Made by a program: the position numbers and the translations under genes. Shown here one piece after another: positions 34,722-52,981 of a stretch of DNA of 64,000 nucleotides. The notes below the pieces were generated by a model, which saw nothing but the letters and a program-made list of their open reading frames with translations, did not search any database and had not been told where the DNA came from. Within the stretch, counting starts at the first letter, position 1; every line of letters starts with the position of its first letter. Origin of the DNA: Geodermatophilus sabuli (GTDB taxonomy: Bacteria > Actinomycetota > Actinomycetes > Mycobacteriales > Geodermatophilaceae); contig NZ_JAAGWF010000005.1 in NCBI RefSeq assembly GCF_010686765.1, forward strand, positions 1 to 64,000, given 5' to 3'.

Positions 34722-37700
34722 ATGGGCACCACCACGGATCTGCGGCCGAGCGCGAGCGACACCGGCGCCCGTCCGGCCGTGGCGGTCGCGGCGACGTCGA
34801 CCCCGGTGCTCAGCTACGCCCTGGCGCACAACCGTGTCCCGGTGGTCTCCCGGCTGGCGTTCACCAACCACGGCGGTCCCGTCCACGGGGCGACGGTGCG
34901 ACTGGGCGTGTGCGACGCGGAGGGCCCGATCGGCACCGCCGTCGAGCTGCTGGTCGACCTCGACGCGGGCCAGACGACGGTGCTCAGCGACGTCGGGCTG
35001 GTCATGGACCCCGCCGCGATGCTGCAGATCGAGGAGCAGCGGCCGGGCTCGATCGAGATCGACCTGCTGGTGGACGGCGCGGACGTCGCCGGCACCGCCG
35101 TCCCCGTGCAGGTGCTGGCCGCCAACCAGTGGCTGGCCGCCCCCGTCCCCCTGGCGCTGGAGATGCTCGCCGCGCACGTCCTCCCGCACCACCCGGCCGT
35201 CACCGCGCTCATCGACGAGGCCGGCGCGCTGCTCGAGGAGCGCACCGGCAGTGGCGCGGTGCAGGGCTACCAGTCCGGGCCCGAGCGGGTGGACGAGATC
35301 GTCGCCGCCCTCGCCGAGGCCATGCGACGGCGGGCCGTGCGGTACAGCCAGCCGCCGGCCAGCTGGGCCGACGTCGGCCAGAAGGTCCGCACCCCCGGCG
35401 ACGTCCTGGACGGGCGCGTGGGCACGTGCCTGGACACCGTCGTCGTCCTCGCCGCCGCGCTGGAACGGGCCGGCATCCGGCCGCTGCTGTGGCTGGCCGA
35501 GGGGGCCGGGAACGGGCACGCCTTCCTCGGCTACTGGCGGGAGGAGCGCGGTGCCGAGAGCGCCGCCACCACCGACGTCGCACCCCTGGTCAACCTGGTC
35601 GACCTCGGGCTGGTGCGGCTGGTCGAGACCACGATGCTGACCAACCGCGGTGGGGACGGCGACCTGCACGCCGCCGCCTACGAGGCCTGGCTGGCCGGCG
35701 ACCTGGACCGGGTCCTCGGTGTGACCGACGTCCACCGCGCCCGGCGCGACGGCATCGTCCCGCTTCCGGCCCGGACCCGCGGCGCCGACGGCACGGTGCA
35801 GGTCGCCGAGTACCGGCCGGCGGTGCACAGCGTCGCGGCGCGGCCGGTCGAGCGGGTCGCCCCGGCGGCGGCCGGCACCCGGCCGGAGGAGCCGGCGCGG
35901 ATCCAGCAGTGGAAGAACAGCCTGCTCGACCTCTCGCTGCGCAACCGGCTGATCAACTACACCGAGCGCGCCGGCCTGCCGCTGACCGTCCCGGGCACGC
36001 ACCTGGCGACGCTGGCCGGCCTGCTGCACGCCGGGACGGCGGTGTCCCTGCTCCCCAGCGACCGGCTGGCGGCCGTCCAGCAGGAGCGCGGGCTGCGGTC
36101 GGCCGTCGAGCTCCCGGCCGACCAGCTGGCCGAGCTGCTGGTCGAGCGCCGGTCGGTGCACACCGACGTCACCGAGGGCGGCTACCTGCCCCGGCTGCGC
36201 AACCTCGCCTACAAGGCCAAGACCGTCCTCGAGGAGACCGGCGCCAACAACCTGCACCTGGCGCTGGGCAGCCTGGTGTGGGAACTCGACGGCCGGCCGC
36301 TGCGCTCACCGCTGGTGCTGGTCCCGGTCGTGCTGACCGCCACCAGCCGCAACGGCGTGTACCGGCTCACCGTCGACGACACCGGCACGAGCACGCCGAA
36401 CCACTGCCTGCTGGAGAAGCTGCGGCAGCTGCACGGCCTGACCGTGCCGGGGCTGACCGGGCCCGGCACCGCGGACGACGACGCGGGCGGCGCCGGCATC
36501 GACGTGGACCGGGCGGTGCAGGCCGTGCGCCAGGCCCTGGCCGATGCCGCGCTCCCCTACCGCGTCGAGCCGACCGCCGACCTCGCCGTCCTCCAGTTCG
36601 CCAAGTACCGGCTCTGGAAGGACCTCGACGAGCACTGGGCCGACTTCACCGCCAACCCGCTCGTGGCCCACCTCGTGCACTCCCCCACCGAGGCGTTCCA
36701 CGACCCGGCGCCCGACCCGGCCGGCCGGACCGACCTCGACGAGCTGGCCGCGCAGTGCCCGGTGCCCGCCGACGCCTCGCAGCTGCGCGCCGTGGCCGAG
36801 GCCGCCGCCGGACGCACCTTCGTGCTCGAGGGCCCGCCCGGCACCGGCAAGTCCCAGACGATCACCAACCTGCTCACCCGCGCGGTCGCCGACGGCAAGC
36901 GGGTGCTCTTCGTCGCCGAGAAGCGGGCGGCGCTCGACGTGGTGGCCCGCCGGCTCGACGCCGTCGGCATGAGCCCGTTCGCCCTCGACCTGCACGACAA
37001 GGGCAGCAAGAGCTCCGTCGTCCGGGCGCAGATCACGGCCGCGCTGCAGCACGCCGTCGCCGTCGACGAGCAGGGGCTGGCCGCCGACAGCGAGGACCTG
37101 CACTCGGCCCGGCGCACCCTGGCCCGCTACGCCGACCGGCTGCACGCGCCCAACGCCGCCGGGCTGTCCTACTACTCGGCACGCACCGCGACGCTGTCGG
37201 TGCGCGACGGCGTCCCCTCGATGCCGGTGCCCGCGGCGTTCGCGGCCGCCGTCCCCGAGGAGATGCTGACCTCGGTGCGCCGTGCCCTGGCGCTGCTGCC
37301 CGACATCGCCGACCTGGTGCGGCCCTCGCCCCGGCACGCCTGGGCGTTCGTCGAGACCGCCGACGTCGACCTCGTCGCCGCCCAGCAGACCGCGGCCGCC
37401 GTCGACCAGGCCATCCGCGACCTGCCCGCCGAGCCGCACCTGGCCCGCGCGCTGCGGGAGGCGCGCACCCCGGAGGACCTCGACGCGCTGGCCCACCTGC
37501 TGTCGGGGCCGGCGACCACGCTCGACGTGCTCGACGAGGTGCCGACACAGCGCTGGACCACGGCCACGACGGACGTGCTCGGCGAGGTCGCCGCCTTCAG
37601 CACCGGCGTCCACCCCGGGATGGAGCGGGCCACCCCAGCGGCGCTGGAGCTGCCGCTGGCCGAGCTGTACGTCGCCGCGCAGACCGCGCAGGCGGCGACC

Positions 37701-40700
37701 TGGTTCGCCCGCCGGGCGGGGCTGCGGGCGGTCCGCGACCGGCTGCGGCCGGTGCTGCGGCCCGGCGTGACGGTCAAGCTGGGGGACGTCGCCGAGCTGA
37801 CCGCCCAGCTGTGGCGGGTGCAGACCGCGGGCCAGGGCATCGTGGCCCGCGCCTCGGTGATCCCCGGCCTGTCGGTGCCCCCGACGTGGAACCCGATGCT
37901 CGACCCGGAACTGCTCGTCGGCCAGGTGGAGTGGCTGGCGACCGCCGGTGCCGCCGCCGACAGCGCCAGCGGGTTCGCCGTCGCGCTGCGCCGGTACGTC
38001 GTCCAGGGGCCCGGTCCCGACCGCGCCGCCGGCGCCGCCGTCGCCCGGCTGCGCGGCGCCCTGGTCGCGCTGGCGCGGGTGTGCCGGACCGGGTCGCGGC
38101 AGCTGGCGCGCTGGTGCGGGGACGACGGGCTGATCCTGCGCTGGCAGATGACCCGCCCCGAGCGCGGCGTGGAGCACACCGGGCTGATGTCCCTGCGCCG
38201 GTGGGCCGACTTCATCGACACCCTGGAGCCGCTGCGCGTCGCCGGACTGGCGGAGGCCCGGGCGCGGCTGGTCCGGGGTGAGCTGCCCGCCGACGACGCC
38301 CTGCGCGCCTTCGAGCACGGACTGGCGCTGGCCTCGCTCCCGGAGCGGCGCGCCGCCAGTGGCCTGGAGGCCTTCGACGCCGAGGTCCACGAGAAGGCCA
38401 TCGCCCGGTTCGCCGCGGCCTCACGGGCGGTCCGCGCGCACCTGCGCAGCGCGCTGCCGGCGTCGGTGCTGGCGGCCCGGTCGCTCGAGCCGGCCGGCGG
38501 CGCGGGACAGCTCGGCGCGCTGCAGCGGGAGCTGGCGAAGTCCCGCCGCGGGCTGGGCGTGCGCGGGCTGCTGGCCCGGTACGGCGAGCTGGTCACCGCC
38601 GTCATGCCGTGCGTGCTGGTCAGCCCGGACTCGGTGGCGCGGTTCTTCCCCGCCGAGGCCGGCCTGTTCGACCTGGTCGTGTTCGACGAGGCCTCGCAGA
38701 TCCGGGTGGCCGACGCGGTGGGCGCGCTCGGCCGGGCGAAGGCGGCGGTCGTCGTCGGCGACAGCCGGCAGATGCCCCCGACCTCGTTCGCCGAGCCGTC
38801 GTCGGGCTCGGCCGAGGACGACGCGATGGAACTGCTGGGCACCGCGGTCGAGGACGAGGAGTCGATCCTCTCCGAGTGCGTGCAGGCGCGGGTGCCCCGG
38901 CAGTGGCTGTCCTGGCACTACCGGAGCCAGGACGAGTCGCTGATCGCGTTCAGCAACGCCAACTACTACGACAACCGGCTCTCGTCGTTCCCGGCGCCGA
39001 CCCACGGCCGCCCCTCGGCCGACGTCGACGGTCGCGGCATCTCGCTGGTCCGCGTCAACGGCACCTTCCACCGCTCGGGCGCCGGCCGGCTGCTGCGCAC
39101 CAACCCGATGGAGGCCAAGGCGGTGGTGGCGGAGATCCGCCGCCGCTTCGACGCCTCGCCGGACACGCTGCCCTCCATCGGTGTGGTGACCTTCAACGCC
39201 CAGCAGCGGGCCTACATCGAGGGGCTGCTGCGCGACGCCGGGGACGACCGGCTGACCGAGGCGCTGGAGCGCACCGACGGCGAGGGCCTGTTCGTCAAGA
39301 ACCTGGAGAACGTGCAGGGCGACGAGCGGGACGTCGTCCTCTTCTCGACCGGCTTCAGCGTCAACGACCGCGGCTTCCTGCCGCTGAACTTCGGCCCGCT
39401 CAACCGGGTGGGCGGCGAGCGTCGGCTCAACGTGGCGGTCACCCGCGCCCGGCGGCAGGTCGTCGTCTTCACCTCCTTCGAGCCCGCCCAGCTGCGCGCC
39501 GAGCAGACCTCGTCGGTGGGCATCAAGCACCTGCGCGCCTACCTCGACCTGGCCGCGCTGGGCACCGACGCGCTGCCGCGGGACGCCCGGCCGGTGGGCG
39601 TGCCCGACCGGCACCGCGAGGAGATCGCGGCCGCGCTGCGCGAGCGCGGGCTGGCCGTGCGCACCGACGTCGGCCTGTCGGACTTCCGGATCGACCTGTC
39701 GGTGGCCCCGGCGGACGCGCCCGAGACGCTGGTGATGGCGGTGCTGCTCGACGGTCCGGCCTGGGCCGGCCGGCGCACCGTGGGCGACCGCGACGGCCTG
39801 CCCGTCGAGGTGCTGTCGGGCATGCTGCGCTGGCCCGCCGTCGAGCGGGTGTGGCTGCCGACCTGGCTGGCCGACCGCACCGCCGTCCTGGACCGGCTCG
39901 TCGCCGCCGTCGAGGCGATCGCCCCGTCCCCGCTCCCGGCCATCGTGGCCACGATGGCCGCCGACGAGCCGGCCCTCGTGGCGCCCCCGGCCGACGCAGG
40001 GGCAGGGCCGGCCGTTCCCGCCCCGCCGGTCGAGCCGGACGTCGTGGTCGTGGCGCCGCTGCGGGCCGCCGTCCCGGCTGTGGTGGAGCCGGTCGTCGCC
40101 GACCCGGAGCCCGTCGCCGCCGCGCCGAAGCCGGCCCGGCGGGCGCCGCGCAAGGCGCCCGCGGCGCCGCAGCTGGACGGCGAGGCACCGTTCGTGCCGT
40201 GGGCGCCCAAGAGCGCCGGCGACCGCAAGGCCCTGGACTCCCTGGCCGACGCGCGGGTGGCCCGCACGGTCAAGCGGGTGCTGCTCGCCGGGGTCAAGGC
40301 CGAGGGCCCGGTGCACCGCGACCGCCTGACCCGGCTGACCGCCGCCGCGTTCGGGCTGACCCGGGTGACCGAGGCCCGGCGCGACGCTCTGCTGGCGCTG
40401 CTGCCGCCGGCCACCCTCGACGGCGAGTTCGTCTGGGCCGAGGACGCCGACCGCGGCAGCTGGGTGGGGTTCCGCCGCCAGGCCGCCAGCGCCGAGCGCC
40501 CGCTGGAGCACGTGGCCCCGATCGAGGTCGGCAACGCGATGGTGGCGCTGTGCCGGACCGGGGCGGGGATGACGCAGGACGAGCTGTTCCTGCGGACGGC
40601 GGAGGTCTTCGGCTACCGCCGCCGGACGCCGTCCCTGCTGCCGCTGCTGCAGGTGGCCCTGGACGGCGTCCTCGGCGCCGGCCGGGTCACCCGCCAGGAG

Positions 40701-40724
40701 TCCGGCCTGCTCACCGCCGTCTGA
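34722..40724 (+). CDS. Giant SF1 helicase with DUF4011, Vsr-like nuclease and DUF3320 domains
   Basis: 2000 residues. In order: an N-terminal beta region plus transglutaminase-like domain (Cys236 in GTCLDTVV, His266 in GNGHAFLGYW); DUF4011 (RIQQWKNSLLDLSLRNRLIN, from ~393); an SF1 helicase split by a long insert, with Walker A EGPPGTGKSQT (~703), Walker B VVFDEASQI (~1322), GDSRQMPPTSF, SWHYRSQDESLIAFSN and motif VI RRLNVAVTRARR (~1566); a restriction-like fold (about 1620-1730, GLAVRTDVGLSDFRIDLSV); a Pro/Ala linker; and a DUF3320-like C-terminus. The family is a recognised candidate for DNA-targeting defence or repair. Monocistronic; VapBC and a GTPase conflict-type operon follow. Confidence 0.9.
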   Translation: MGTTTDLRPSASDTGARPAVAVAATSTPVLSYALAHNRVPVVSRLAFTNHGGPVHGATVRLGVCDAEGPIGTAVELLVDLDAGQTTVLSDVGLVMDPAAMLQIEEQRPGSIEIDLLVDGADVAGTAVPVQVLAANQWLAAPVPLALEMLAAHVLPHHPAVTALIDEAGALLEERTGSGAVQGYQSGPERVDEIVAALAEAMRRRAVRYSQPPASWADVGQKVRTPGDVLDGRVGTCLDTVVVLAAALERAGIRPLLWLAEGAGNGHAFLGYWREERGAESAATTDVAPLVNLVDLGLVRLVETTMLTNRGGDGDLHAAAYEAWLAGDLDRVLGVTDVHRARRDGIVPLPARTRGADGTVQVAEYRPAVHSVAARPVERVAPAAAGTRPEEPARIQQWKNSLLDLSLRNRLINYTERAGLPLTVPGTHLATLAGLLHAGTAVSLLPSDRLAAVQQERGLRSAVELPADQLAELLVERRSVHTDVTEGGYLPRLRNLAYKAKTVLEETGANNLHLALGSLVWELDGRPLRSPLVLVPVVLTATSRNGVYRLTVDDTGTSTPNHCLLEKLRQLHGLTVPGLTGPGTADDDAGGAGIDVDRAVQAVRQALADAALPYRVEPTADLAVLQFAKYRLWKDLDEHWADFTANPLVAHLVHSPTEAFHDPAPDPAGRTDLDELAAQCPVPADASQLRAVAEAAAGRTFVLEGPPGTGKSQTITNLLTRAVADGKRVLFVAEKRAALDVVARRLDAVGMSPFALDLHDKGSKSSVVRAQITAALQHAVAVDEQGLAADSEDLHSARRTLARYADRLHAPNAAGLSYYSARTATLSVRDGVPSMPVPAAFAAAVPEEMLTSVRRALALLPDIADLVRPSPRHAWAFVETADVDLVAAQQTAAAVDQAIRDLPAEPHLARALREARTPEDLDALAHLLSGPATTLDVLDEVPTQRWTTATTDVLGEVAAFSTGVHPGMERATPAALELPLAELYVAAQTAQAATWFARRAGLRAVRDRLRPVLRPGVTVKLGDVAELTAQLWRVQTAGQGIVARASVIPGLSVPPTWNPMLDPELLVGQVEWLATAGAAADSASGFAVALRRYVVQGPGPDRAAGAAVARLRGALVALARVCRTGSRQLARWCGDDGLILRWQMTRPERGVEHTGLMSLRRWADFIDTLEPLRVAGLAEARARLVRGELPADDALRAFEHGLALASLPERRAASGLEAFDAEVHEKAIARFAAASRAVRAHLRSALPASVLAARSLEPAGGAGQLGALQRELAKSRRGLGVRGLLARYGELVTAVMPCVLVSPDSVARFFPAEAGLFDLVVFDEASQIRVADAVGALGRAKAAVVVGDSRQMPPTSFAEPSSGSAEDDAMELLGTAVEDEESILSECVQARVPRQWLSWHYRSQDESLIAFSNANYYDNRLSSFPAPTHGRPSADVDGRGISLVRVNGTFHRSGAGRLLRTNPMEAKAVVAEIRRRFDASPDTLPSIGVVTFNAQQRAYIEGLLRDAGDDRLTEALERTDGEGLFVKNLENVQGDERDVVLFSTGFSVNDRGFLPLNFGPLNRVGGERRLNVAVTRARRQVVVFTSFEPAQLRAEQTSSVGIKHLRAYLDLAALGTDALPRDARPVGVPDRHREEIAAALRERGLAVRTDVGLSDFRIDLSVAPADAPETLVMAVLLDGPAWAGRRTVGDRDGLPVEVLSGMLRWPAVERVWLPTWLADRTAVLDRLVAAVEAIAPSPLPAIVATMAADEPALVAPPADAGAGPAVPAPPVEPDVVVVAPLRAAVPAVVEPVVADPEPVAAAPKPARRAPRKAPAAPQLDGEAPFVPWAPKSAGDRKALDSLADARVARTVKRVLLAGVKAEGPVHRDRLTRLTAAAFGLTRVTEARRDALLALLPPATLDGEFVWAEDADRGSWVGFRRQAASAERPLEHVAPIEVGNAMVALCRTGAGMTQDELFLRTAEVFGYRRRTPSLLPLLQVALDGVLGAGRVTRQESGLLTAV

Positions 40725-40827: not shown

Positions 40828-41787
40828 TCAGGGGATGCGGTAGGCGTCGCCGTAGGTCGCCCAGCGCAGCGGGGGGTTGAGGTGCAGGTTGCCCTGCTCC
40901 AGGAACTGCCGCTGCCCGGTGTCGACCCGGCTCGTGTCGCGGTGCGCCCGCTCCGCCTGCATCGCCGCGACGCGGGCGTCGAGGAAGGCGTCCAGCCACT
41001 CGACCTCGTCGCCGCCCTGGCTGGGCGGGGAGGCCACCTGCAGCGCGGCGTCCCGGATGCCGCCGAAGCTCCGGGCGTCCGTCCCGGGCCCGTGCATGAC
41101 CAGGGCGTCGAAGTAGATGAACTGGCCGAGCGCGTGCACGCCGTCGGCGCGGCCCTGCTCGACGGCCGGGTCGAAGTAGACGAGGTCCAGGACGTGGTCC
41201 TGCGCCGCCTGGAACAGCGGGTCATCGGCGGCGGCGCGCCAGTCGTCGACGAACGCCCGGCCCAGGCCCGCCTGCGTCACGTTGCCCATGCCGAGCTCCT
41301 CCTGCTCGCGCAGGGCGGGGAGGTAGCGCTCCAGCCGGTTCCCGGGGGCGGTGCTGGCGTAGTACTCGACCAGCCGGGTCATGTCGCCGCAGCCGCTGCA
41401 GAAGCCGATGAGGCCGGCGGTGTAGCCGCGGTTCTCCTCCGGGACGCCCTCGACGTCCCACTCGATGTAGCCGTACTGCGCCCGCCAGTCGAGCGTGGAG
41501 TTCTCCGCGCTGGAGACCAGCTGCAGCGCGCGGTCGCGCTTGGCCGGATTGGTCAGGTCGGTGGTGTCCTCGGGCGTCGGGCTCGCCTCCTCCGACGTCG
41601 TCGGCGCGGCCTCGCCGGGCAGCAGGTGGCGCGCCCCGGGGACGACGACGGCGACCAGCACCAGCGCCGCCAGCAGGCCGACCACGGCAGCGGCCGCGAG
41701 GACCACCGGCCGGCCGTTCCTGGGCCGGCGGGGCGGCGGAGGAGTCACGGCATGGCGCGGCCGGGACCCGGTCCGCATCCCGCTCAT
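40828..41787 (-). CDS. Glycoside hydrolase family 46 chitosanase, membrane-anchored
   Basis: 319 residues from ATG 41787 (other in-frame starts at 41814 GTG and 41778 ATG). An N-terminal membrane helix (VVLAAAAVVGLLAALVLVAVV) and a Ser/Thr/Glu linker precede the GH46 domain. The family signature is plain: LQLVSSAENSTLDW with the catalytic Glu, then YIEWDVEGVPEENRGYTAGL, where the family's catalytic Asp region carries a short insertion, and IGFCSGCGDMTRLVEYY. It hydrolyses chitosan outside the cell, anchored by the uncleaved or slowly cleaved helix. Stands alone between convergent genes. Confidence 0.9.
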   Translation of the reverse strand: MSGMRTGSRPRHAVTPPPPRRPRNGRPVVLAAAAVVGLLAALVLVAVVVPGARHLLPGEAAPTTSEEASPTPEDTTDLTNPAKRDRALQLVSSAENSTLDWRAQYGYIEWDVEGVPEENRGYTAGLIGFCSGCGDMTRLVEYYASTAPGNRLERYLPALREQEELGMGNVTQAGLGRAFVDDWRAAADDPLFQAAQDHVLDLVYFDPAVEQGRADGVHALGQFIYFDALVMHGPGTDARSFGGIRDAALQVASPPSQGGDEVEWLDAFLDARVAAMQAERAHRDTSRVDTGQRQFLEQGNLHLNPPLRWATYGDAYRIP

Positions 41788-41862: not shown

Positions 41863-42258
41863 TCAGTCCGGCAGGAGGAACGCGCAGGTGGGGCCACTCG
41901 CGCGGGCGAGCCGGCGGTCGAGCGTGACCAGCGGGGCGTCCAGCGCCTCGGCCAGGGCCACGTAGGCGGCGTCGTAGGCGGTCACGGTGGGGTGCAGCTC
42001 CCACACCCGGTCCGCCAGCGGCTCGAAGGCGAAGGTCCCCACCCGGAGATCGGTGAGGTCCCGATGGGCCAGGGCGGCGACGTCGCGACTCAGGTGGCCG
42101 GTCAGCACGGCGCGCCGCAGGACGGCGGACACCTCGACGAGCAGGTGCCCTGGAGCCGCGAGGGGCCGGCGGGCCAGCGTCCGCGCTGCCCACTCGCCGT
42201 CCGGCCCCCCGTCGACGAGCGCCGCGAACACCGCCGAGGAGTCGGCGACCACGGTCAT
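41863..42258 (-). CDS. vapC: VapC-type PIN-domain toxin
   Basis: 131 residues, ATG start overlapping the antitoxin stop (ATGA). PIN fold with the acidic set: VVADSSAVFAALVDG (first Asp), LLVEVSAVLRRAV (Glu), TAYDAAYVALAEAL (Asp) and LVTLDRRLARASG (fourth acid). These bind Mg2+/Mn2+ for RNA cleavage; tRNA or rRNA are the usual VapC targets. All four acids are present, so it should be active. Confidence 0.9.
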   Translation of the reverse strand: MTVVADSSAVFAALVDGGPDGEWAARTLARRPLAAPGHLLVEVSAVLRRAVLTGHLSRDVAALAHRDLTDLRVGTFAFEPLADRVWELHPTVTAYDAAYVALAEALDAPLVTLDRRLARASGPTCAFLLPD

Positions 42259-42491
42259 CGCCGGTCGGCGTCCCGGGCCTCGAGGACGACGTCGGCGGGG
42301 ACCCGCGTGCCGGTGGCGCGCACCCGGCTCCGGACGCGGTCCCAGAGGTCGTCGGGACTGGGCCGCGCGGCCAGCGCGGTCAGTTCTGCTCGCACGTACT
42401 CCTGCAGGGACTGGCCGGCTCGGGCGGCACGGGCGGCGAGGACGTCGCGGGTCTCGTCCGGCACGTCGCGGATGGTCATGGACACCGGCAT
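42255..42491 (-). CDS. vapB: VapB/FitA-type ribbon-helix-helix antitoxin
   Basis: 78 residues from ATG 42491; an in-frame ATG at 42479 is the alternative. N-terminal ribbon-helix-helix MTIRDVPDETRDVLAARAAR and AGQSLQEYVRAELTALA bind DNA; the C-terminal tail DLWDRVRSRVRATG wraps the toxin. No Shine-Dalgarno precedes 42491, but a TATCAT hexamer ends exactly 6 nt before it, so the mRNA is probably leaderless. A palindrome at 42495-42518 covers the promoter, fitting autoregulation. Confidence 0.87.
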   Translation of the reverse strand: MPVSMTIRDVPDETRDVLAARAARAGQSLQEYVRAELTALAARPSPDDLWDRVRSRVRATGTRVPADVVLEARDADRR

Positions 42492-42494
42492 GAT

Positions 42495-42518
42495 TGCATG
42501 ATAGCTGCGATACATGCA
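42495..42518 (-). promoter_or_regulatory. vapBC promoter/operator
   Basis: Palindrome TGCATG (42495-42500), 12-nt centre ATAGCTGCGATA, CATGCA (42513-42518). The minus-strand -10-like TATCAT (42503-42498) lies inside it, 6 nt from the vapB ATG. The VapBC complex likely binds here. Confidence 0.6.
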
Positions 42519-42563
42519 GATCACATGTGGGTGACGTGCATGGTGGTTCACAGGTTCGCGCTC

Positions 42564-42607: not shown

Positions 42608-43723
42608 GTGGACGAGGCTCTCGACGTGGCCGTCGCCGACCTGGCCGACACGCGGCAGGTGGACCCACTGGAGCCCGGCGACGCCGACCGGATCGGCCCG
42701 TACGCGCTGCTGTGCCGCCTGCCCCGCGGTGGGCAGGGCGCCGACGTGTTCGTGGGCCGGCGCGCGCCGGAGGGCCCGGACGGCGGGGACGGCCCGCTGG
42801 TGGTCATCAAGCGGCTGCCCGAGGCGGCACCCGAGCTCGCCCGCCGCCGGCTGGCCAAGGAGGTCGAGAACGCCTCCCGGGTGAAGAGCTCACGGGTGGC
42901 GCGCATCGTCGACCAGGACCTCACCGCGGGCGCCCCCTACTACGTGCAGGAGTACGTGCAGGGGACGCCGCTGGACGAGTTCCTCGCCCACCGCTCCGCC
43001 GGCCTCAACGCCGAGGAGCTGCGCCGGATCGCGATCGGCCTGCTGCGGGCGCTGCGCGACGTGCACGCCGCGGGCGTCGTCCACCGCGATGTCAAGCCGG
43101 GCAACATCATCATCTCGGGCACCGACGTCTGGCTGGTCGACTTCGGCATCAGCCGCTACATCGGCCCGGAGGCACCGTCGGGGACCGCCACGACGGGCAT
43201 TGCGGCGCTGGGCACGAAGCTGTTCGCCAGCCCCGAGCAGCTGCAGGGGGCGGTGCTCACCGAGGCCAGCGACGTCTACAGCTGGGGCCTGGTGATCGCC
43301 TACGCCGCAGGCGCCGTCCACCCGGTGGACCCCGACGACGACATGCCCGACTCCGACTACTTCCTCGCACTCCGGGCCGGGCGGCTGGACCTCTCCCCCG
43401 TGCCGCCGAACCTGCTCGACAGCGTCACCCAGGCGCTGAAGTTTGCGCCCGAGCGGCGTCCCACGGTGGCCCGGCTGGCCCGGCAGGTCGAGCAGCGGAC
43501 CCGCTGGCTGGGCGGGACGTCGCAGATCCCCGACCCGCGGACGACGATGCGCGACCTGCAGTCCCTCGGGGCGGTCGTCGAGGCCGGGCGGTACGAGCTG
43601 GCCCGCCTGGAGCGCGCCGTCGCCGACACCCGGGCGGGCTTCGCCGCGGCGGTCGCGGTCGCCGTGCTGCTGGGCATCGTCGCGGGACTGGTGCTGGCCG
43701 TCCTCTTCCACGTCGTCGTCTGA
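42608..43723 (+). CDS. Membrane-anchored Ser/Thr protein kinase of the GTPase operon
   Basis: 371 residues from GTG 42608. Kinase domain: atypical Gly loop LPRGGQGADVFVG, VAIK-equivalent VVIKRLPE, HRD loop VVHRDVKPGNIII, DFG in WLVDFGISRY, and ASDVYSWGLVIAYAAG. The activation segment is followed by PEQLQG (APE equivalent). A juxtamembrane helix and one C-terminal membrane segment (FAAAVAVAVLLGIVAGLVLA) end the protein with no extracellular sensor domain, so it cannot sense by an outer domain. It leads an operon with a membrane peptide, a GTPase and a GAP1-like protein. It probably phosphorylates one of them. Confidence 0.9.
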   Translation: MDEALDVAVADLADTRQVDPLEPGDADRIGPYALLCRLPRGGQGADVFVGRRAPEGPDGGDGPLVVIKRLPEAAPELARRRLAKEVENASRVKSSRVARIVDQDLTAGAPYYVQEYVQGTPLDEFLAHRSAGLNAEELRRIAIGLLRALRDVHAAGVVHRDVKPGNIIISGTDVWLVDFGISRYIGPEAPSGTATTGIAALGTKLFASPEQLQGAVLTEASDVYSWGLVIAYAAGAVHPVDPDDDMPDSDYFLALRAGRLDLSPVPPNLLDSVTQALKFAPERRPTVARLARQVEQRTRWLGGTSQIPDPRTTMRDLQSLGAVVEAGRYELARLERAVADTRAGFAAAVAVAVLLGIVAGLVLAVLFHVVV

Positions 43724-43735
43724 GAGGGGACCTGC

Positions 43736-43873
43736 GTGTCTGGCATGTACGAGCGGGCCCTGGCCCAGCAGCGCCTCGACGCGCGCCGCCAGCGGTTCCG
43801 CGAGCGCCAGCGGGTGCTGCTCGCGGTGTTCTGCGCGACCGCCGTCGTCTTCTTCGCGCTCTTCGTCCGCTGA
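43736..43873 (+). CDS. 45-residue membrane peptide between kinase and GTPase
   Basis: A short gene: GTG 43736 with GAGAGGGG ribosome binding site, 12 bp after the kinase stop, ending TGATG that overlaps the GTPase ATG. It encodes VSGMYERALAQQ, a strongly basic helix (DARRQRFRERQR) and one membrane helix (LLAVFCATAVVFFALFV). The tight spacing and coupling argue that it is real. It may be a membrane tether or subunit for the GTPase complex. No family recognised. Confidence 0.7.
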   Translation: MSGMYERALAQQRLDARRQRFRERQRVLLAVFCATAVVFFALFVR

Positions 43874-45042
43874 TGAGGCGCCGCGTCTGCCCCCGCTGCC
43901 TGGAACCCCTGACCACCCCGGTGTGGCGGGACGCCACCGGCGTCCCGCAGCGCCCACCGGTGGAGCGCCGGACCCGGTGGCAGAAGCTGCTCGACCCGCT
44001 GCGCATGGAGCCCGCGCCGCTGCCCACCCCGAAGGACGCCGCCGGTGCCGCCGCGGCCAACGTGGCGCCCACCTGCCCGAACGGCCACCGGCTGCCCCCG
44101 GACTACCTCGACCGGCCGACCGTCGTCGTTGGGCTGGTCGGGCTCACCGGCGCGTCGAAGAGCACCTACCTGACGGTGCTGGTCGACCTGCTGCACGAGG
44201 GGGCGCTGGCGCCGCTGGGCATCTCGGTGGAGATGGACGAGGAGAGCGCCGCCCGCTTCGACGACCACCGCTACCGGCTGATGGTGCAGAAGCGGCAGCT
44301 GCCGCTGACCCTGCCGCTGCTCGGCGAGGGCAGCTCACCGGAGCCGTTCATGCTGGTCCTGCGCGGCGCCGGCCGGGGCGGGACCGAGCGGGCGGTCAAC
44401 CTGGTCTTCTTCGACGCCTCGGGCGAGCAGCTCTACCGGAGCGAGGACATGGGCCAGTACGGCCGCTTCCTGTACGCGGCGACGTCGCTGCTGGTGATCC
44501 TCTCCCCCGGCGTCTTCCCGCGGCTGCGGCACCTGGCCGACGCCGGGGAGGAGTCGATCGGCCTGGCCCGGCACACCCAGATGGTGGTCAACCTGGCCAA
44601 CCTGCTGCGGACGGCGCGCAACGTGCACCCCGACAGCCACCTCGCCGACGTGTCCACCGCGGTCGTGCTCAGCAAGGCCGACAAGCTGCGGTCGGTGCCC
44701 GACTTCCCCGCCGACGTCCTGCGCGACACCGACCTGGCCGCCCGCCCGCTGGCCTCCTGGTTCGAGGACGTGCGCCGCAACAGCTCCCGGCTGGTCGACT
44801 TCCTCGAGCTCAGCGGCGGCTCGAACCTGCTGACCGCGGTGCTCAACCGGCTGCCGCGGCCGACCGTGCACGCCGTGTCGGCCACCGGCGTCGACGCGAA
44901 GGACGGCGGCTATCCCGAGATCTCCCCGGTCGGCTGCCTGGACCCGCTGCTGGTGCTGCTGGCCCGGCACGGCGTCGTCTCCGAGGAGGGGCTGGACCCG
45001 GAGGAGACCGGCTCGGCGCTGCGCGGCGAGTGGTCGGGATGA
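43873..45042 (+). CDS. Double-GTPase-like (DO-GTPase/TRAFAC) protein with zinc-binding N-terminus
   Basis: 389 residues, start overlapping the membrane-peptide stop. N-terminal zinc knuckle CPRCLEPL and CPNGHRLP (about residues 6-70). GTPase core: P-loop VGLTGASKSTYLTVL (residues ~90-104, SKS replacing the usual GKS), Walker B-like LVFFDASGEQLYRSEDM and the base-specificity motif LSKADKL. This matches the bacterial double-GTPase group found with GAP1 proteins. The substitution in the P-loop (Ser for Gly) is odd but the Lys is kept. Overlaps the next gene by 4 bp. Likely the switch of a multi-protein complex. Confidence 0.82.
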   Translation: MRRRVCPRCLEPLTTPVWRDATGVPQRPPVERRTRWQKLLDPLRMEPAPLPTPKDAAGAAAANVAPTCPNGHRLPPDYLDRPTVVVGLVGLTGASKSTYLTVLVDLLHEGALAPLGISVEMDEESAARFDDHRYRLMVQKRQLPLTLPLLGEGSSPEPFMLVLRGAGRGGTERAVNLVFFDASGEQLYRSEDMGQYGRFLYAATSLLVILSPGVFPRLRHLADAGEESIGLARHTQMVVNLANLLRTARNVHPDSHLADVSTAVVLSKADKLRSVPDFPADVLRDTDLAARPLASWFEDVRRNSSRLVDFLELSGGSNLLTAVLNRLPRPTVHAVSATGVDAKDGGYPEISPVGCLDPLLVLLARHGVVSEEGLDPEETGSALRGEWSG

Positions 45043-46745
45043 GCGGGCGGACCTTCCCCCAGGCGCTGTACACGTCGGCCAGCCGGACGCTCGAGGGTCC
45101 CGGGTTCGGCGTCTTCGCGCTGTCGGCCGACTGGCCCGCGGAGGTCGGCCGCACCCGCAAGGCGCTGGGCGCGCTGGTCGGGTTCCGCCCGGACGCCGGG
45201 GAGGCCTACGGGCTGCTGCAACGGGGCGCCGGTCGGGTGCTCTACCGCAAGGTGGCCGCCAGCGCCGACGGCTTCGGCCGTCCGGGCAACTACCTGGTGC
45301 ACCTCCTGTGGGACGGCGGTGGGAGGCTGGGCGTGCGCGACCTGCTGGCGCTGCGCCGTGCCGGCCGGTTCCTGGACGCGCTGCCCGGCGACGCCGCACC
45401 GACCGCCGAGTCCCCGCCGCTGCGCGTGCCGCCGGCTCCCCGCTCGTCGCCGGCCCTGCCGCCCGAGGAGGTGGACGCGCTCACCCCGTCGGTGGCGCTG
45501 CTGCTGGCCGCGCTGGCCGCGGGCGAGGGGGTCGTCGCGCTGCCCCGCCGGACGCCGTCGGGGCGGGAGGTGGCCGACGTGGTCTTCGACGTCCTGCCGC
45601 GCGCGCTGACCGCCGCGGTGACGCTGCACGCCGGCCCGCGGGAGGACGACGGGGACACCGCGGCCGTCGTCGTCGAGCTGGCCGACACCGGCCCGGCGCG
45701 GGCGTCGGCGGGCGGACGGCGGCTGGCCGCGGGGCCGGCCGACACCGACCGCGCCCGGACGCTGCTCGAGGCGGCCAGCAAGGCGGAGCTGCCCCCCGAC
45801 GACGTCGCCGACCTGCGCGGCATGGATGCCTGGCTGTTCGCCGACGCGTGGGCCGAGCAGGACGCCGACGCGCTGACCGCCGACCAGGTCGAGTGCGTGC
45901 TGGCCTCCGGCGCCGGGCCGGGCTGGCTGGTGCGCGGGCGCAACGCGGCCGCCGCCCTGGACCTGGCCGCCGACGACGCGGTGATCGCCGGCGCCCTGCA
46001 GGCGGCGGCCGGCCGGTCGCCCGCCGCGGCCGACCGGCTGCGGCTGGCGGTGCTGGCCGCCCTGCTCGACGAGGTGTTCGACGGCGCCGCCGGCCCGGCC
46101 GAGTCCGCCGTGCAGCTGGCCGGCCTGACCCAGGGCGACCTGTGCACCGCCTTCGCCGACGCGGTGGCCGGCGGGCGGCGGATCGCCCGGCTGGACCGGG
46201 CGGCCGGGCTGCTGGTCGAGCAGACGCTGAGCCTGGGCGTCCCGCTGCCGCTGCTGGACCTGACCGTCGACCGGTGGGAGCTGGCGCTGCTGGCGACCCG
46301 GCGGCGGGTGGTCGGCGACGAGCTCACCGCCCAGTGGCGCGCGGCCGGCGGGGCGTGGGAGGAGGAGCACCGGGCGCTGCTCGGGCACCTGCTGGTCGCC
46401 GACGTCGGCTGGCTGACCCGGCTGGAGTCCGCCGTGCCGGTCTCCGGGCTGCCCCCGGTGCTGCGCTGGGCGGCGCTGCGGATGGACGTCGCCGGCGTGG
46501 AGCGCCTCGCCGTCGCCGTGGCCACCGGCGGCACGGCGGGGAACGGCTGGGCGCTGCGCGAGGTGGTCTTCGGTGCGGAGCTGCCGGCCGCCGACGTGGA
46601 CGGCATCCTGACCCGGCAGCTGGCGCTGCTCCTGGTGGACGACGACTGGCCGCGGGAGCTCGCCGAGTCCTTCGCCCGGCGCCAGGGCGGCGAGCCCGAC
46701 GACGGCCCGCCCCGCCGGCACCGGCGCCGCCCCGGCACCCGCTGA
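45039..46745 (+). CDS. GTPase-associated protein 1-like (GAP1-N2) protein
   Basis: 568 residues, ATG overlapping the GTPase stop (ATGA). The N-terminus FPQALYTSASRTLEGPGFGV, LVGFRPDAGEAYGLLQ and GRPGNYLVHLLW fits the GAP1-N2 domain. The rest is Ala/Leu-rich helical repeats with few conserved residues and ends in an Arg/Pro tail. GAP1 proteins always go with double GTPases and are proposed adaptors/effectors of NTP-dependent conflict systems. No catalytic motif seen. The GC palindrome GCCCGCGCGCGGGC at 46746-46759 directly after the stop may terminate the operon. Confidence 0.78.
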   Translation: MSGRTFPQALYTSASRTLEGPGFGVFALSADWPAEVGRTRKALGALVGFRPDAGEAYGLLQRGAGRVLYRKVAASADGFGRPGNYLVHLLWDGGGRLGVRDLLALRRAGRFLDALPGDAAPTAESPPLRVPPAPRSSPALPPEEVDALTPSVALLLAALAAGEGVVALPRRTPSGREVADVVFDVLPRALTAAVTLHAGPREDDGDTAAVVVELADTGPARASAGGRRLAAGPADTDRARTLLEAASKAELPPDDVADLRGMDAWLFADAWAEQDADALTADQVECVLASGAGPGWLVRGRNAAAALDLAADDAVIAGALQAAAGRSPAAADRLRLAVLAALLDEVFDGAAGPAESAVQLAGLTQGDLCTAFADAVAGGRRIARLDRAAGLLVEQTLSLGVPLPLLDLTVDRWELALLATRRRVVGDELTAQWRAAGGAWEEEHRALLGHLLVADVGWLTRLESAVPVSGLPPVLRWAALRMDVAGVERLAVAVATGGTAGNGWALREVVFGAELPAADVDGILTRQLALLLVDDDWPRELAESFARRQGGEPDDGPPRRHRRRPGTR

Positions 46746-49887: not shown

Positions 49888-52101
49888 TCAGGTGCGGCCG
49901 AGGCCGACCAGGGTGACGTCGTCGGCGTCCGGGGGGTCCAGGGCGGCGAGGACGGCGTCCAGCAGCGCCTCCGGGCCCGCCTCGGCCGTCCCCGCGGCGG
50001 CGCGGAGGGTGTCCAGCCGGTCGGGCAGCGGGACGTCGCGCCGCTCGACCAGGCCGTCGCTGTAGAGCAGCAGCCGGTCGGCGTCGACCAGCCGGGTCCG
50101 GGCCTCGGGGTAGTCGACGGTGTCGAGCAGGCCGAGGGCCGGTCCGCGGCCCTCGCGCAGCAGCGAGACCCCGGCGGCGGTCACGTGCAGCGCCGGCAGG
50201 TGCCCGGCGTTGGTCACGGCGACGTCCCCGGTCTCGGGGTCGACCTCGGCGATGACGGCGGTGGCGAGCTCGCCGGGCAGCAGCGCGGCGATCACCTCGT
50301 TGAGGGCCTGCAGCGCCGCGGCCGGGCCGCGGTCGCGGAGCAGGTGGGCGCGCAGCGCGTGCCGAAGCTGCGCGGTGATGGCCGCCGCCGCGAGCCCGTG
50401 GCCGGCCACGTCGCCGAGCACGATCGAGATCCGGCCGCTCGGCAGCGGCACCAGGTCGTACCAGTCGCCGCCCACCACGTCGGCCGTGCTGGGCCGGTAG
50501 CGGGCGGCCAGCTCCAGACCGGGCACCTCGGGCAGCTGCTCGAGCAGCAGCGTGCGCTGCAGGGCGGCGGCCAGCCGGTTGTCCTCGCCGGCCCGCTGCA
50601 GGGCCGACTCGGTGAGGTGCCCGGCCAGTGCCCGGGCGGCGGCGATCTCGTGCGGGCGCCAGGGCGGCGCCGTTCCGCGGACCGTCTCGCTCCAGGCGGC
50701 GAAGGACCGCCGGGGGGACAGCCGCGGGCCGGCGCCGGTGTCGACGGTCTTCGACGTGTGCGGGTCGCCGCCCCAGGTCACCTCGCGGACGGTCTCCGGG
50801 CGGAACCAGGCGAGGAAGTCCCCGGCACCGACCTCGACGGCGAGCAGGCCGCTGGCCGTGGCGGCGACGTCGGCGGCCCCGGGCAGCACCTGCGCCAGCG
50901 CGTCGGTGGCCGGCGCCCCGGTGGCCAGCAACGCCGGGACCAGCGCGGCGACCCGGTCGGCGGGCGGCGTCGTCCCGATCAGGTGCAGCCGCCCGTCCAG
51001 GCGGAGCGCCGCGCCACCCGCGGGCAGCAGGTCGAGCACGGTCGGCGACCCCTCGGTGAGCGCCTGCGCCGGCGCGCGCGGCGTGCGGCCCAGCGCCGCC
51101 ACCAGCGCCGCCTGGCGCTCGGCCACCCCGACGACGTCGTCGCGCTCGCCGGCCTCGACCGTGGTGTGCAGCAGCAGCGAGGCCGTGCGGCCGAGGAACT
51201 CCGCCGCCGTCCGGTCGGCCACCGAGGGCCGGTGCGGGCCGGCGTAGTGGTGGCAGGCGATGAGGCCCCACAGCCGGCCGCGGTCGATCAGCGACACCGA
51301 CATCGAGGAGATCACGCCCATGTTGGCGAGGTACTCCAGGTGCACCGGCGAGACGCTGCGCAGCGCGGCCCCGGAGAGGTCCAGCGGCCGCCCGGTCCGC
51401 GGATCCGTCGCCGGCCGCAACGGCACCGGGCGGTAGGTGGCGTCGGGGATCAGCCGCAGCCAGTTGGTCGTGTAGAGCGCGCGGGCCTGGGCCGGGATGT
51501 CGCTGGCGGGGTAGCGCAGGCCGAGGAAGGGGGCGAGGTCGGCACGCCGGGCCTCGGCGACCACCTCGCCGTTCCACTCCGGGTCGAAGCGGTAGACCAT
51601 CACGCGGTCGAACCCGGTGAGCGTGCGGACGTCGCGGGCGAGGGTGTCGGCGAGCCCGGCCAGACCGGTGGTGGCCGACAGCCGCTGGAGCACCGCCGGC
51701 AGCCGGCGGTGCCAGGCCGCCCCGGCCTCCTCGGCGCCCTCGACCGGCTCCCACTCGGTGAGCAGCAGCCCGTCGGCGCGGGACACGACGAGGTCGAACT
51801 CGGCGCCGCGCACGGTCACCCGCAGCGGGTTGAGCTCCGCGAGGTCACCGGCCAGCCCGGCACGCAGCCGGGTGAGATCGGCGTCCCCCAGGACGGCGGA
51901 GAGGTCGTCCCCCTCGCCCAGCAGCTCCGCGGCGTTGGCCGAGGCGACGACGACGGCGAGCTCGGGCTCGGTGACCGCGAGCAGGGCGCCGTGCGGCTGG
52001 ATGGCGCCGGGGACGGCGATCGGCTCGTCCGCGCAGCGCTGCAGGGCCTCGTCGCCGAGGGCCGGGACACCGGTCGGTGCGGAACTCGGCGGCGACGTCA
52101 T
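49888..52101 (-). CDS. Bacteriophytochrome fused to a SpoIIE/PP2C phosphatase
   Basis: 737 residues. PAS with the biliverdin-linking Cys23 in the CxxEPIxxPGxIQPHG pattern (RCADEPIAVPGAIQPHG); GAF with the phytochrome motif PASDIPAQARALY (Asp near 201); PHY with the tongue motif PRRSF (about 460); then SpoIIE phosphatase from ~540 (VVGGDWYDLV, LGDVAGHGLAAAA, LLYSDGLVER, DDVTLVGLGR). All chromophore-binding and metal-binding residues I can check are present. A red/far-red light receptor that dephosphorylates a partner instead of acting as a histidine kinase. A STAS protein is encoded 11 bp upstream on the same strand; the anti-sigma-type kinase is divergent. Confidence 0.92.
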   Translation of the reverse strand: MTSPPSSAPTGVPALGDEALQRCADEPIAVPGAIQPHGALLAVTEPELAVVVASANAAELLGEGDDLSAVLGDADLTRLRAGLAGDLAELNPLRVTVRGAEFDLVVSRADGLLLTEWEPVEGAEEAGAAWHRRLPAVLQRLSATTGLAGLADTLARDVRTLTGFDRVMVYRFDPEWNGEVVAEARRADLAPFLGLRYPASDIPAQARALYTTNWLRLIPDATYRPVPLRPATDPRTGRPLDLSGAALRSVSPVHLEYLANMGVISSMSVSLIDRGRLWGLIACHHYAGPHRPSVADRTAAEFLGRTASLLLHTTVEAGERDDVVGVAERQAALVAALGRTPRAPAQALTEGSPTVLDLLPAGGAALRLDGRLHLIGTTPPADRVAALVPALLATGAPATDALAQVLPGAADVAATASGLLAVEVGAGDFLAWFRPETVREVTWGGDPHTSKTVDTGAGPRLSPRRSFAAWSETVRGTAPPWRPHEIAAARALAGHLTESALQRAGEDNRLAAALQRTLLLEQLPEVPGLELAARYRPSTADVVGGDWYDLVPLPSGRISIVLGDVAGHGLAAAAITAQLRHALRAHLLRDRGPAAALQALNEVIAALLPGELATAVIAEVDPETGDVAVTNAGHLPALHVTAAGVSLLREGRGPALGLLDTVDYPEARTRLVDADRLLLYSDGLVERRDVPLPDRLDTLRAAAGTAEAGPEALLDAVLAALDPPDADDVTLVGLGRT

Positions 52102-52112
52102 CGCCGGCGACC

Positions 52113-52463
52113 CTACGGGCCGACCACTCCGTCGATGCCCCTGGCCGCCTCCACGACGGGGACCAGCGCCTGCAGCTCCAGGAGGTCGATGACCAAGCGG
52201 ACCGGCCGGTTCTCCTGCGGGCAGACCACCTGGAGGGGCACGCCGCTGCCGGTGGCAGCGCGGGCGGAGCGCGCCAGTTGCCGGGCGCCGGAGGAGTCCA
52301 TGAACGTCGTCTCCGTGAGGTCGATGACCATCGAACTCGGGGACGTGGCCAGCTGCGCGTCGACCGCCTCGGCCAGCCGTGGCGCCGTCGCGATGTCGAG
52401 CTCGCCGCGTACCCTCACCGCAGGGCGTCCGAGCACCGTCGTCCGCTCGATCTCGAACAGCAC
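52113..52463 (-). CDS. STAS-domain anti-sigma factor antagonist
   Basis: 116 residues from GTG 52463 with GAGGGG. RsbV/SpoIIAA-like: VRGELDIATAPRLAEAVD, VIDLTETTFMDSSGARQLA with the phosphorylatable Ser in DSSG (about residue 58), and a C-terminal EAARGIDGVV. In such switches the anti-sigma kinase phosphorylates this Ser and the SpoIIE phosphatase removes it. The phytochrome-phosphatase gene follows 11 bp downstream, so the pair is cotranscribed. Divergent from the anti-sigma-type ATPase at 52539. Confidence 0.92.
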   Translation of the reverse strand: MLFEIERTTVLGRPAVRVRGELDIATAPRLAEAVDAQLATSPSSMVIDLTETTFMDSSGARQLARSARAATGSGVPLQVVCPQENRPVRLVIDLLELQALVPVVEAARGIDGVVGP

Positions 52464-52538
52464 GGGTCGGTCCCCTCGTCGGTGTGCACTGGCTCCTCCG
52501 CAGGGTAGTTGCCGCCGACCGCGAAGGGTGATCCGCCC

Positions 52539-52970
52539 GTGGACATCTCGTTCACCGTCCGTCTGCCGGTGGACTCGACCAGCGTCCCGTTCGTCCGGGG
52601 GCTCTGCCGCCAGGCGCTGGAGCACCTGCAGGTCGACCCGCCCGTGGTCGACGAGGTCGCGCTGGCGCTGACCGAGGCGTGCGCCAACGTGGTCCAGCAC
52701 GCGGCGGGGGACGTGGACTACGAGGTCCAGGTCGACATCGTCGACGGGACCTGCCGGATCAGCGTGTTCGACGGCGGCGACGGGTTCGACGTCGACGCGC
52801 TGCCCGCCGGCGAGGAGCGCTCCCCGCTGGACGACGGCCGCGGGCTGCTGCTCATGCAGGCGCTGGTGGACCGGTTGAGCTTCGTGCACGAGCCCGACGG
52901 CCGGCACCGGGTCACCCTGGAGAAGCGGCTGGTCCTGCACCCGCCGCTGCGCCTGGTCGACCCGGTCTGA
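52539..52970 (+). CDS. HATPase_c anti-sigma factor-type kinase (RsbW-like)
   Basis: 143 residues from GTG 52539. GHKL fold: N-box VALALTEACANVVQHA (residues ~45-60), G1 VFDGGDGFDV and G2 DGRGLLLMQALVD. It resembles RsbW/SpoIIAB and the stand-alone actinobacterial ATP-binding proteins. It would bind a sigma factor or phosphorylate the STAS antagonist at 52113. No sigma factor is encoded in this window. The kinase gene at 52982 follows by 11 bp in the same transcript. Confidence 0.9.
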   Translation: MDISFTVRLPVDSTSVPFVRGLCRQALEHLQVDPPVVDEVALALTEACANVVQHAAGDVDYEVQVDIVDGTCRISVFDGGDGFDVDALPAGEERSPLDDGRGLLLMQALVDRLSFVHEPDGRHRVTLEKRLVLHPPLRLVDPV

Positions 52971-52981
52971 CCGTCGCGCCG

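Follow-up and report, generated by a model that had tools for sequence, protein, structure and literature searches.

What do four tightly packed genes of Geodermatophilus sabuli, specifying a protein kinase, a tiny membrane peptide, a GTPase, and a GAP1-like protein, do together? They lie in a stretch of 64,000 nucleotides (nt) of contig NZ_JAAGWF010000005.1 (assembly GCF_010686765.1, 4.79 Mb in 122 contigs; family Geodermatophilaceae), which at its full length is called the window below. An initial annotation had presented them as a candidate conflict system. Our comparisons suggest that the operon encodes one membrane-docked, kinase-controlled GTPase signaling complex, an interpretation for which we see even chances.

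All four genes exist where the annotation had placed them, on the plus strand. A Ser/Thr protein kinase gene (positions 42608-43723; 371 amino acids [aa], GTG start) is followed after 12 nt by the gene for a basic peptide with a single transmembrane (TM) helix (43736-43873; 45 aa, GTG start), the gene of a DO-GTPase2-type GTPase (43873-45042; 389 aa), and that of a GAP1-N2-type protein (45039-46745; 568 aa). The peptide stop and the GTPase start share 1 base, and the GTPase stop and the GAP1 start overlap by 4 nt; co-translation of the overlapping genes is therefore likely from the gene layout. The domain identities were also right, each with a match above the Pfam gathering cut-off: Pkinase (1.8e-26), DO-GTPase2 (PF19993, 4.2e-9, 36.9 bits against a cut-off of 27), and GAP1-N2 (PF20013, 4.4e-6).

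A close GTPase was found in 24 of 112 Geodermatophilaceae genomes (15/26 in the genus, 4/12 genera), and all 24 contain the complete four-gene set, with the GAP1 gene cut short near a contig end in one of them (L005). The annotation had named a lack of GAP1 or double-GTPase matches and a lack of co-occurrence in other genomes as grounds for rejecting it; both the matches and the co-occurrence were obtained. The same order of kinase, TM peptide, GTPase, and GAP1 was found in Microlunatus kandeliicorticis (L042) and in a Propionibacteriaceae metagenome-assembled genome (L043). There, the kinase has a C-terminal TM helix and an extra N-terminal part, the basic TM peptide has 40 aa, and the GTPase is 27-29% identical. 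The gene caller missed the L043 peptide, which we identified by visual inspection of the reading frame.

Kinase, GTPase, and GAP1-like protein

The kinase should be active, since the catalytic Lys (K68), the Glu (E85), the catalytic-loop Asp and Asn (D161 and N166), and the DFG Asp (D178) are invariant in all 11 aligned kinases. Hydropathy gave one TM helix at its C terminus with almost nothing beyond, which agrees with the annotated C-terminal anchor without an outer sensor; no outer domain is present. The protein matched 36 PADLOC families (best among those listed: PD-T4-6, 6.6e-39), which we took as general kinase likeness. Among its 25 listed NCBIfam matches, none attains its cut-off.

The GTPase begins with zinc-ligand-like pairs (CPRC...CPNGH). 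In an alignment of 13 DO-GTPases, 4 of them from this group, T146, D181/G184/E185, K268/D270, and S336/G339 are invariant, so that the motif positions Thr, DxxGE, SKAD, and SATG are kept. These include the Walker B glutamate (FFDASGE; D181, G184, and E185 in 13/13). The altered P-loop noted earlier (GASKST) is indeed present: GLTGASKST, residues 90-98, is invariant in all 24 close orthologs, the window's included. The residue before the P-loop Lys is Ser in 24/24 members of this group, as opposed to Gly in 37/37 DO-GTPases that precede other GAP1 genes (38 loci were chosen with a gene before GAP1, and L145 yielded no P-loop). We take this position to be equivalent to Gly15 in Ras, at which substitutions are known to impair the binding of nucleotides. 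Among the sequences compared, the Gly-to-Ser change is fixed in this group and confined to it, and it may affect nucleotide binding. The Gly before the Lys is an observation in the relatives; it is not given as defining in the parts of Kaur et al. 2020 (PMC7159879) on which we draw here and below.

The AlphaFold2 model of the GTPase is of moderate confidence (predicted local distance difference test [pLDDT], 71.4). Its Foldseek matches were the G domains of atlastin, GBP1, EF-Tu, RagD, and MglA, with a best E value of 1.7e-5 and query template modeling scores (TM-scores) of only 0.2-0.35. The whole genome contains one DO-GTPase2 match at E <= 0.001. Thus, the term "double GTPase" used in the annotation holds as a family name and fails as a statement about two copies. 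Two copies occur in 38% of systems and are not obligatory (Kaur et al. 2020, PMC7159879).

The GAP1-like gene lies directly downstream of the GTPase gene. Of 16 aligned members, 15 gave a GAP1-N2 match at E <= 10 (best 2e-9), and none gave a Pfam match to GAP1-M or GAP1-C. Profile-profile alignment (hhalign) against 13 canonical GAP1 proteins reached E 2.7e-14 over residues 5-199, corresponding to N2 plus part of M. The hidden Markov model (HMM) search proposed in the annotation thus recovered GAP1-N2 and DO-GTPase2, while GAP1-M and GAP1-C stayed unmatched by Pfam. The AlphaFold2 model (mean pLDDT, 86.5) has a helical C-terminal half. With this model, no Foldseek match reached E 0.001; the armadillo-type matches had low TM-scores, and TagF (9t0n) appeared at rank 13 with a nonsignificant E value of 0.22. 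Sequence comparison with solved structures gave nothing up to E 10. The N-terminal strand order of the model is b-b-a-b-b-b-a, which would presumably fit a longin-like domain. A likeness to TagF or longin would fit a platform for a GTPase regulator, and we treat it only as a lead from modeling. TagF has been reported to resemble the longin domain of Sec22b (PMC3325213).

The tiny membrane gene

The annotation had suggested checking whether the neighborhood of the 45-residue gene is conserved. The gene is located between the kinase and GTPase genes in all 24 loci. Among 15 congeneric copies, the median proportion of synonymous differences (pS) is 0.262 and that of nonsynonymous differences (pN) is 0.097, and pN is the lower of the two in 101 of 105 pairs. 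The constant position and the low pN indicate that the 45-aa open reading frame (ORF) is a real gene under purifying selection. Copies with Leu in place of Met at the fourth residue, in which the internal ATG is lost, support the GTG start.

The selection is uneven along the peptide: pN is 0.034 in the tail (codons 1-27) and 0.159 in the TM part in the same 15 copies. Of the 12 positions that never vary among the 24 copies, 11 fall within tail residues 1-27, and residues 1-28 carry a net charge of +4 to +7. Neither Pfam nor PADLOC gave a match at E <= 1, and the NCBIfam matches (best E 0.043) all fell well short of their cut-offs. An amphipathic tail was considered and is not supported, the hydrophobic moment being equaled by 86% of shuffles. 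With its conserved basic tail and freer membrane helix, the peptide resembles a docking subunit more than a peptide that lyses membranes. The earlier suggestion that it tethers the complex to the membrane is plausible, the conserved part being the predicted cytoplasmic tail.

The annotation had counted the tiny membrane gene among the parts of a set of which it knew no description. We surveyed 60 further GAP1-N2 loci (50 places plus 10 loci), in 56 of which the GAP1 gene was callable (not in 4). The scored set comprised the 34 loci with a multi-TM operon gene within three genes after GAP1; the other 22 had none. An ORF was counted if it lay directly after the multi-TM gene, measured 38-81 aa, had a positive coding score, and contained one or more TM helices. 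Such an ORF was found in 25 of the 34 loci. When the same rule was applied to control genes of >= 300 aa outside operons, 1 of 186 was positive, and 0 of 39 with at least two TM helices (Fisher p for 25/34 against control, 2e-24, with loci that are not independent). The 34 loci include a near-identical pair in one genome (L125 and L126); a further GAP1 place in G386 received no separate score, and the L113 ORF had a negative coding score and stands outside the 25. The gene caller, whose training set was genes of the window, performs poorly on low-GC genomes. The surveyed loci include HSP70-type and kinase/PP2C/vWA-type systems. Small TM genes are thus not special to the four-gene set, and a tiny membrane gene seems to be general in GAP1-N2 systems.

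Homology was assessed with an HMM of the 24 close copies, which was run against 28 peptides from this slot and 235 background TM ORFs (221 scored). The 28 comprised 24 of the 25 surveyed peptides (one duplicate was dropped) plus those of L113, L042, L043, and L153. They outranked the background (p 2.6e-8; charge-matched 20 versus 82, p 6.8e-5), and 13/28 were in the top 20. The best single E value was 0.014, 13/28 were equaled by at least 10 of 50 of their own shuffles, and the 28 peptides form 8 clusters at 40% identity and so are not independent. The weak profile similarity is at most suggestive of homology of these peptides to that of the window. GAP1-N2 systems have been predicted to act near the membrane, and TM segments are frequent in their variable components (Kaur et al. 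2020, PMC7159879); the tiny TM genes may be among those components. Separately, GAP1 is followed at once by a tiny TM ORF in L150, L152, L153, and L155, where no membrane GTPase is present; the ends of these ORFs are similar and contain CGLV. This is perhaps another compact architecture.

Distribution and genomic neighborhood

Upstream of the operon, the window encodes a DUF4011 helicase with a REase_MTES_1575 domain (34722-40724, plus strand; 2000 aa; PADLOC PDC-S37, 5.6e-262). Its C-terminal 300 aa were matched in 26/26 genomes of the genus, with or without the operon, which points to a core gene and not to a defense gene of sporadic occurrence. A GH46 (chitosanase-type) hydrolase gene (40828-41706, minus strand) lies between the helicase gene and a pair encoding a PIN-domain toxin and a FitA-like antitoxin (41863-42524, minus strand). 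The pair is divergent from the kinase gene, with ~80 nt between the starts, and only some relatives have it next to the operon. Beyond the GAP1 gene are ilvA (46789), phaC, and a gene for a phytochrome-type SpoIIE phosphatase (49888-52101, minus strand). The phosphatase gene stands side by side with genes for a STAS protein, an HATPase_c_2 protein, and a second Ser/Thr kinase (49888-54505), which is a possible light-regulated partner-switching set. The phosphatase, STAS, and HATPase_c_2 genes are also together in most fetched genomes without the operon.

The helicase gene is upstream of the operon, with 0-3 genes between, in 12 of 13 bearing loci; the thirteenth locus begins at a contig edge. 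The downstream phosphatase gene lies within two genes in 8/13, is absent with same-region genes instead in 4, and is cut off by a contig end in 1. Only in the window and in the G. sabuli locus L028 does ilvA adjoin the operon, on opposite sides. In 10 of 10 fetched operon-lacking genomes (of 11), the helicase, ilvA, and phosphatase genes are together without the operon, the exceptions being an extra gene between them (1), a 28-codon ORF (1), and a helicase in two pieces (1). The neighborhood of the operon is thus the same but rearranged.

On a tree of the helicase, a linked marker whose gene adjoins the operon, the operon is present in 15 of the 16 genomes of one clade and in 0 of the 10 of the other. 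Its presence required 2 changes, against a shuffled mean of 8.7 (0/500 shuffles as low). The sixteenth genome of the clade, G060, is a 610-contig assembly that also gave no rpoB match, so its lack of the operon says little. On an unlinked rpoB-region DNA tree of 25 of the 26 genomes, the operon is present in 13/13 of one group and 2/12 of the other, and 3 changes were required (shuffled mean, 8.1; 0/500 as low). Both trees were midpoint-rooted. The two bearers among the operon-lacking genomes on the rpoB-region tree are the window's own genome and G058; a single clade of all 15 bearers was not rejected on this tree (approximately unbiased test, p-AU 0.178). The patchy-looking 15/26 had made a scattered mobile island within the genus a candidate, which is weakened by this clustering (2-3 changes against 8-9 shuffled). 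One or two block transfers, or losses, may have shaped the history of the operon.

The window genome is placed differently by the two markers (L161 against L044), with operon-lacking genomes by the rpoB region and with bearers by the helicase. Transfer of a helicase-operon block into its lineage is possible. Two genomes of another genus (G101 and G102) carry the compact operon (L097 and L098) together with an HSP70-type DO-GTPase/GAP1 system that has a TM gene of 70-72 aa (L077 and L078). Two congeners without the operon (G042 and G064) have a different DO-GTPase2 match elsewhere (L074 and L075), which in L075 lies among large genes.

Mechanism, alternatives, and known systems

In the signaling complex that we propose, the peptide tail would hold the soluble pair of zinc-ribbon GTPase and GAP1 to the membrane, beside the kinase. 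Such docking would replace the membrane-bound second GTPase of fuller systems, in which the membrane GTPase would be the anchor with the tiny peptide beside it. The substrate of the kinase would be the GTPase, GAP1, or the peptide tail, and this phosphorylation would set when the GTPase changes state. The P-loop Ser may make nucleotide binding or turnover weak or slow, in which case phosphorylation or GAP1, and not intrinsic hydrolysis, would control the switch. Via GAP1-dependent membrane assembly, the output could be a stress or envelope response, perhaps one directed at invaders. More broadly, and more tentatively, a constant tiny membrane subunit of GAP1-N2 systems might dock GTPase and GAP1. 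The Geodermatophilaceae operon would then be the minimal form, with a tail-anchored kinase in place of the membrane GTPase and the Ser P-loop as part of a phosphorylation-driven switch.

Several points weigh against this signaling complex. GAP1-C, the predicted effector-coupling part, was not detectable by Pfam in the 16 GAP1-like members. PP2C and vWA are absent among the scanned neighbors (ilvA at 46789 was not scanned); the two PP2C_2 matches of the genome lie on other contigs, and vWA was not searched genome-wide. Helix packing between kinase and peptide is a guess, GxxxG being found inside the last 30 kinase residues in only 17 of 24 orthologs. A literature search showed no experimental work on contacts, phosphorylation, nucleotide binding, or phenotypes for these families or this operon.

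The same genes could instead form an antiphage or conflict system, in which the switch senses infection and leads to containment or cell death; we consider this possible but doubtful. Kaur et al. 2020 (PMC7159879) predicted a conflict role for GAP1-N2 systems and describe an association with a multicellular habit, the PIN/FitA-like pair and the DUF4011 helicase with its PDC-S37 match are nearby, and a block transfer would explain why the rpoB-region tree sets the window genome and G058 among operon-lacking genomes. However, Pfam, PADLOC, and NCBIfam scans recognized no effector domain in the four proteins, PADLOC gave nothing at E <= 1 for the GTPase or GAP1 and, for the kinase, only what we take as general likeness, and the helicase is present in all congeners regardless of the operon. 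The clustered presence beside the helicase gene is also unlike quick turnover. Another alternative is a stable stress or envelope module, inherited mostly vertically in part of Geodermatophilus and not serving defense. The clustered presence, the shared neighborhood, the purifying selection, and the presence of DO-GTPase in some envelope-stress operons, according to a survey of phage shock protein (PSP) operons (PMC11237479), are consistent with such a module. Yet 88/112 family genomes have no close copy, so the operon is dispensable, GAP1-N2 systems elsewhere are described as mobile (PMC7159879), and the rpoB and helicase trees disagree on two bearers, the window's genome included. The rpoB-region tree lowered our estimate for the stable module, which we likewise hold to be doubtful, and slightly raised that for defense.

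It is improbable, in our view, that the 45-aa peptide is itself a membrane-damaging effector held in check by the GTPase, GAP1, and kinase. Its small size, basic charge, and single TM helix would suit that role, as would the recurrence of small TM genes in GAP1-N2 loci and the pore-forming SLATT effectors predicted in related systems (Kaur et al. 2020, PMC7159879). However, the conserved part is the tail, which is not amphipathic, and not the TM helix, and the effectors of these systems are described as variable (PMC7159879).

Two known systems invite comparison with the proposed complex. The threonine-phosphorylation module of the type VI secretion system (T6SS) consists of PpkA, PppA, and TagF. 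The likeness, only a lead, lies in the combination of a kinase with a posttranslational regulator and in the TagF entry in the GAP1 Foldseek list. In contrast to that module, a Pfam scan of 14 proteins of the window turned up no secretion genes, and the TagF match is not significant.

The closer counterpart is the third of three themes set out by Kaur et al. 2020 (PMC7159879), who define DO-GTPases and GAP1-N2 and describe DO-GTPase/GAP1 systems as widespread in bacteria. This theme covers 10% of GAP1-N2 neighborhoods, is restricted to actinobacteria, and has an active kinase, which may be fused to a TM segment, usually with PP2C and vWA. The operon shares with it the actinobacterial host, a zinc-ribbon DO-GTPase, GAP1-N2 typically downstream, and the active, TM-fusable kinase. 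It differs in having no PP2C, vWA, or membrane DO-GTPase, a kinase without a zinc ribbon, a 568-aa GAP1 without detectable GAP1-C, the tiny TM gene, and the P-loop Ser. L088, a kinase-theme locus of the same class, shares DO-GTPase2, GAP1-N2, a kinase, and a 48-aa single-TM peptide; it adds a membrane DO-GTPase, PP2C_2, vWA (just below the Pfam cut-off), GAP1-M, and GAP1-C, and its kinase aligns with that of the window at E only 1.5e-8.

The claim that the four-part set is undescribed therefore stands in part. The link of a kinase to GAP1-N2 and DO-GTPase was already known from the third theme; the tiny gene is not described under the words searched, the main text of Kaur et al. 2020 (PMC7159879) containing no mention of a small or short protein, microprotein, or small TM. 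Longin, roadblock, and TagF are likewise absent from that text. If the tiny membrane subunit is general, the gene lists of DO-GTPase/GAP1 systems may be incomplete. A minimal system of four genes and one GTPase could, at this size, be reconstituted as a whole, which would make GAP1/DO-GTPase function testable. By its predicted domains, the operon belongs with the kinase-linked GAP1-N2 systems as a compact variant; what it adds to them is the seemingly general tiny membrane gene, the fixed Gly-to-Ser change in the P-loop, and the clustered presence in Geodermatophilus.

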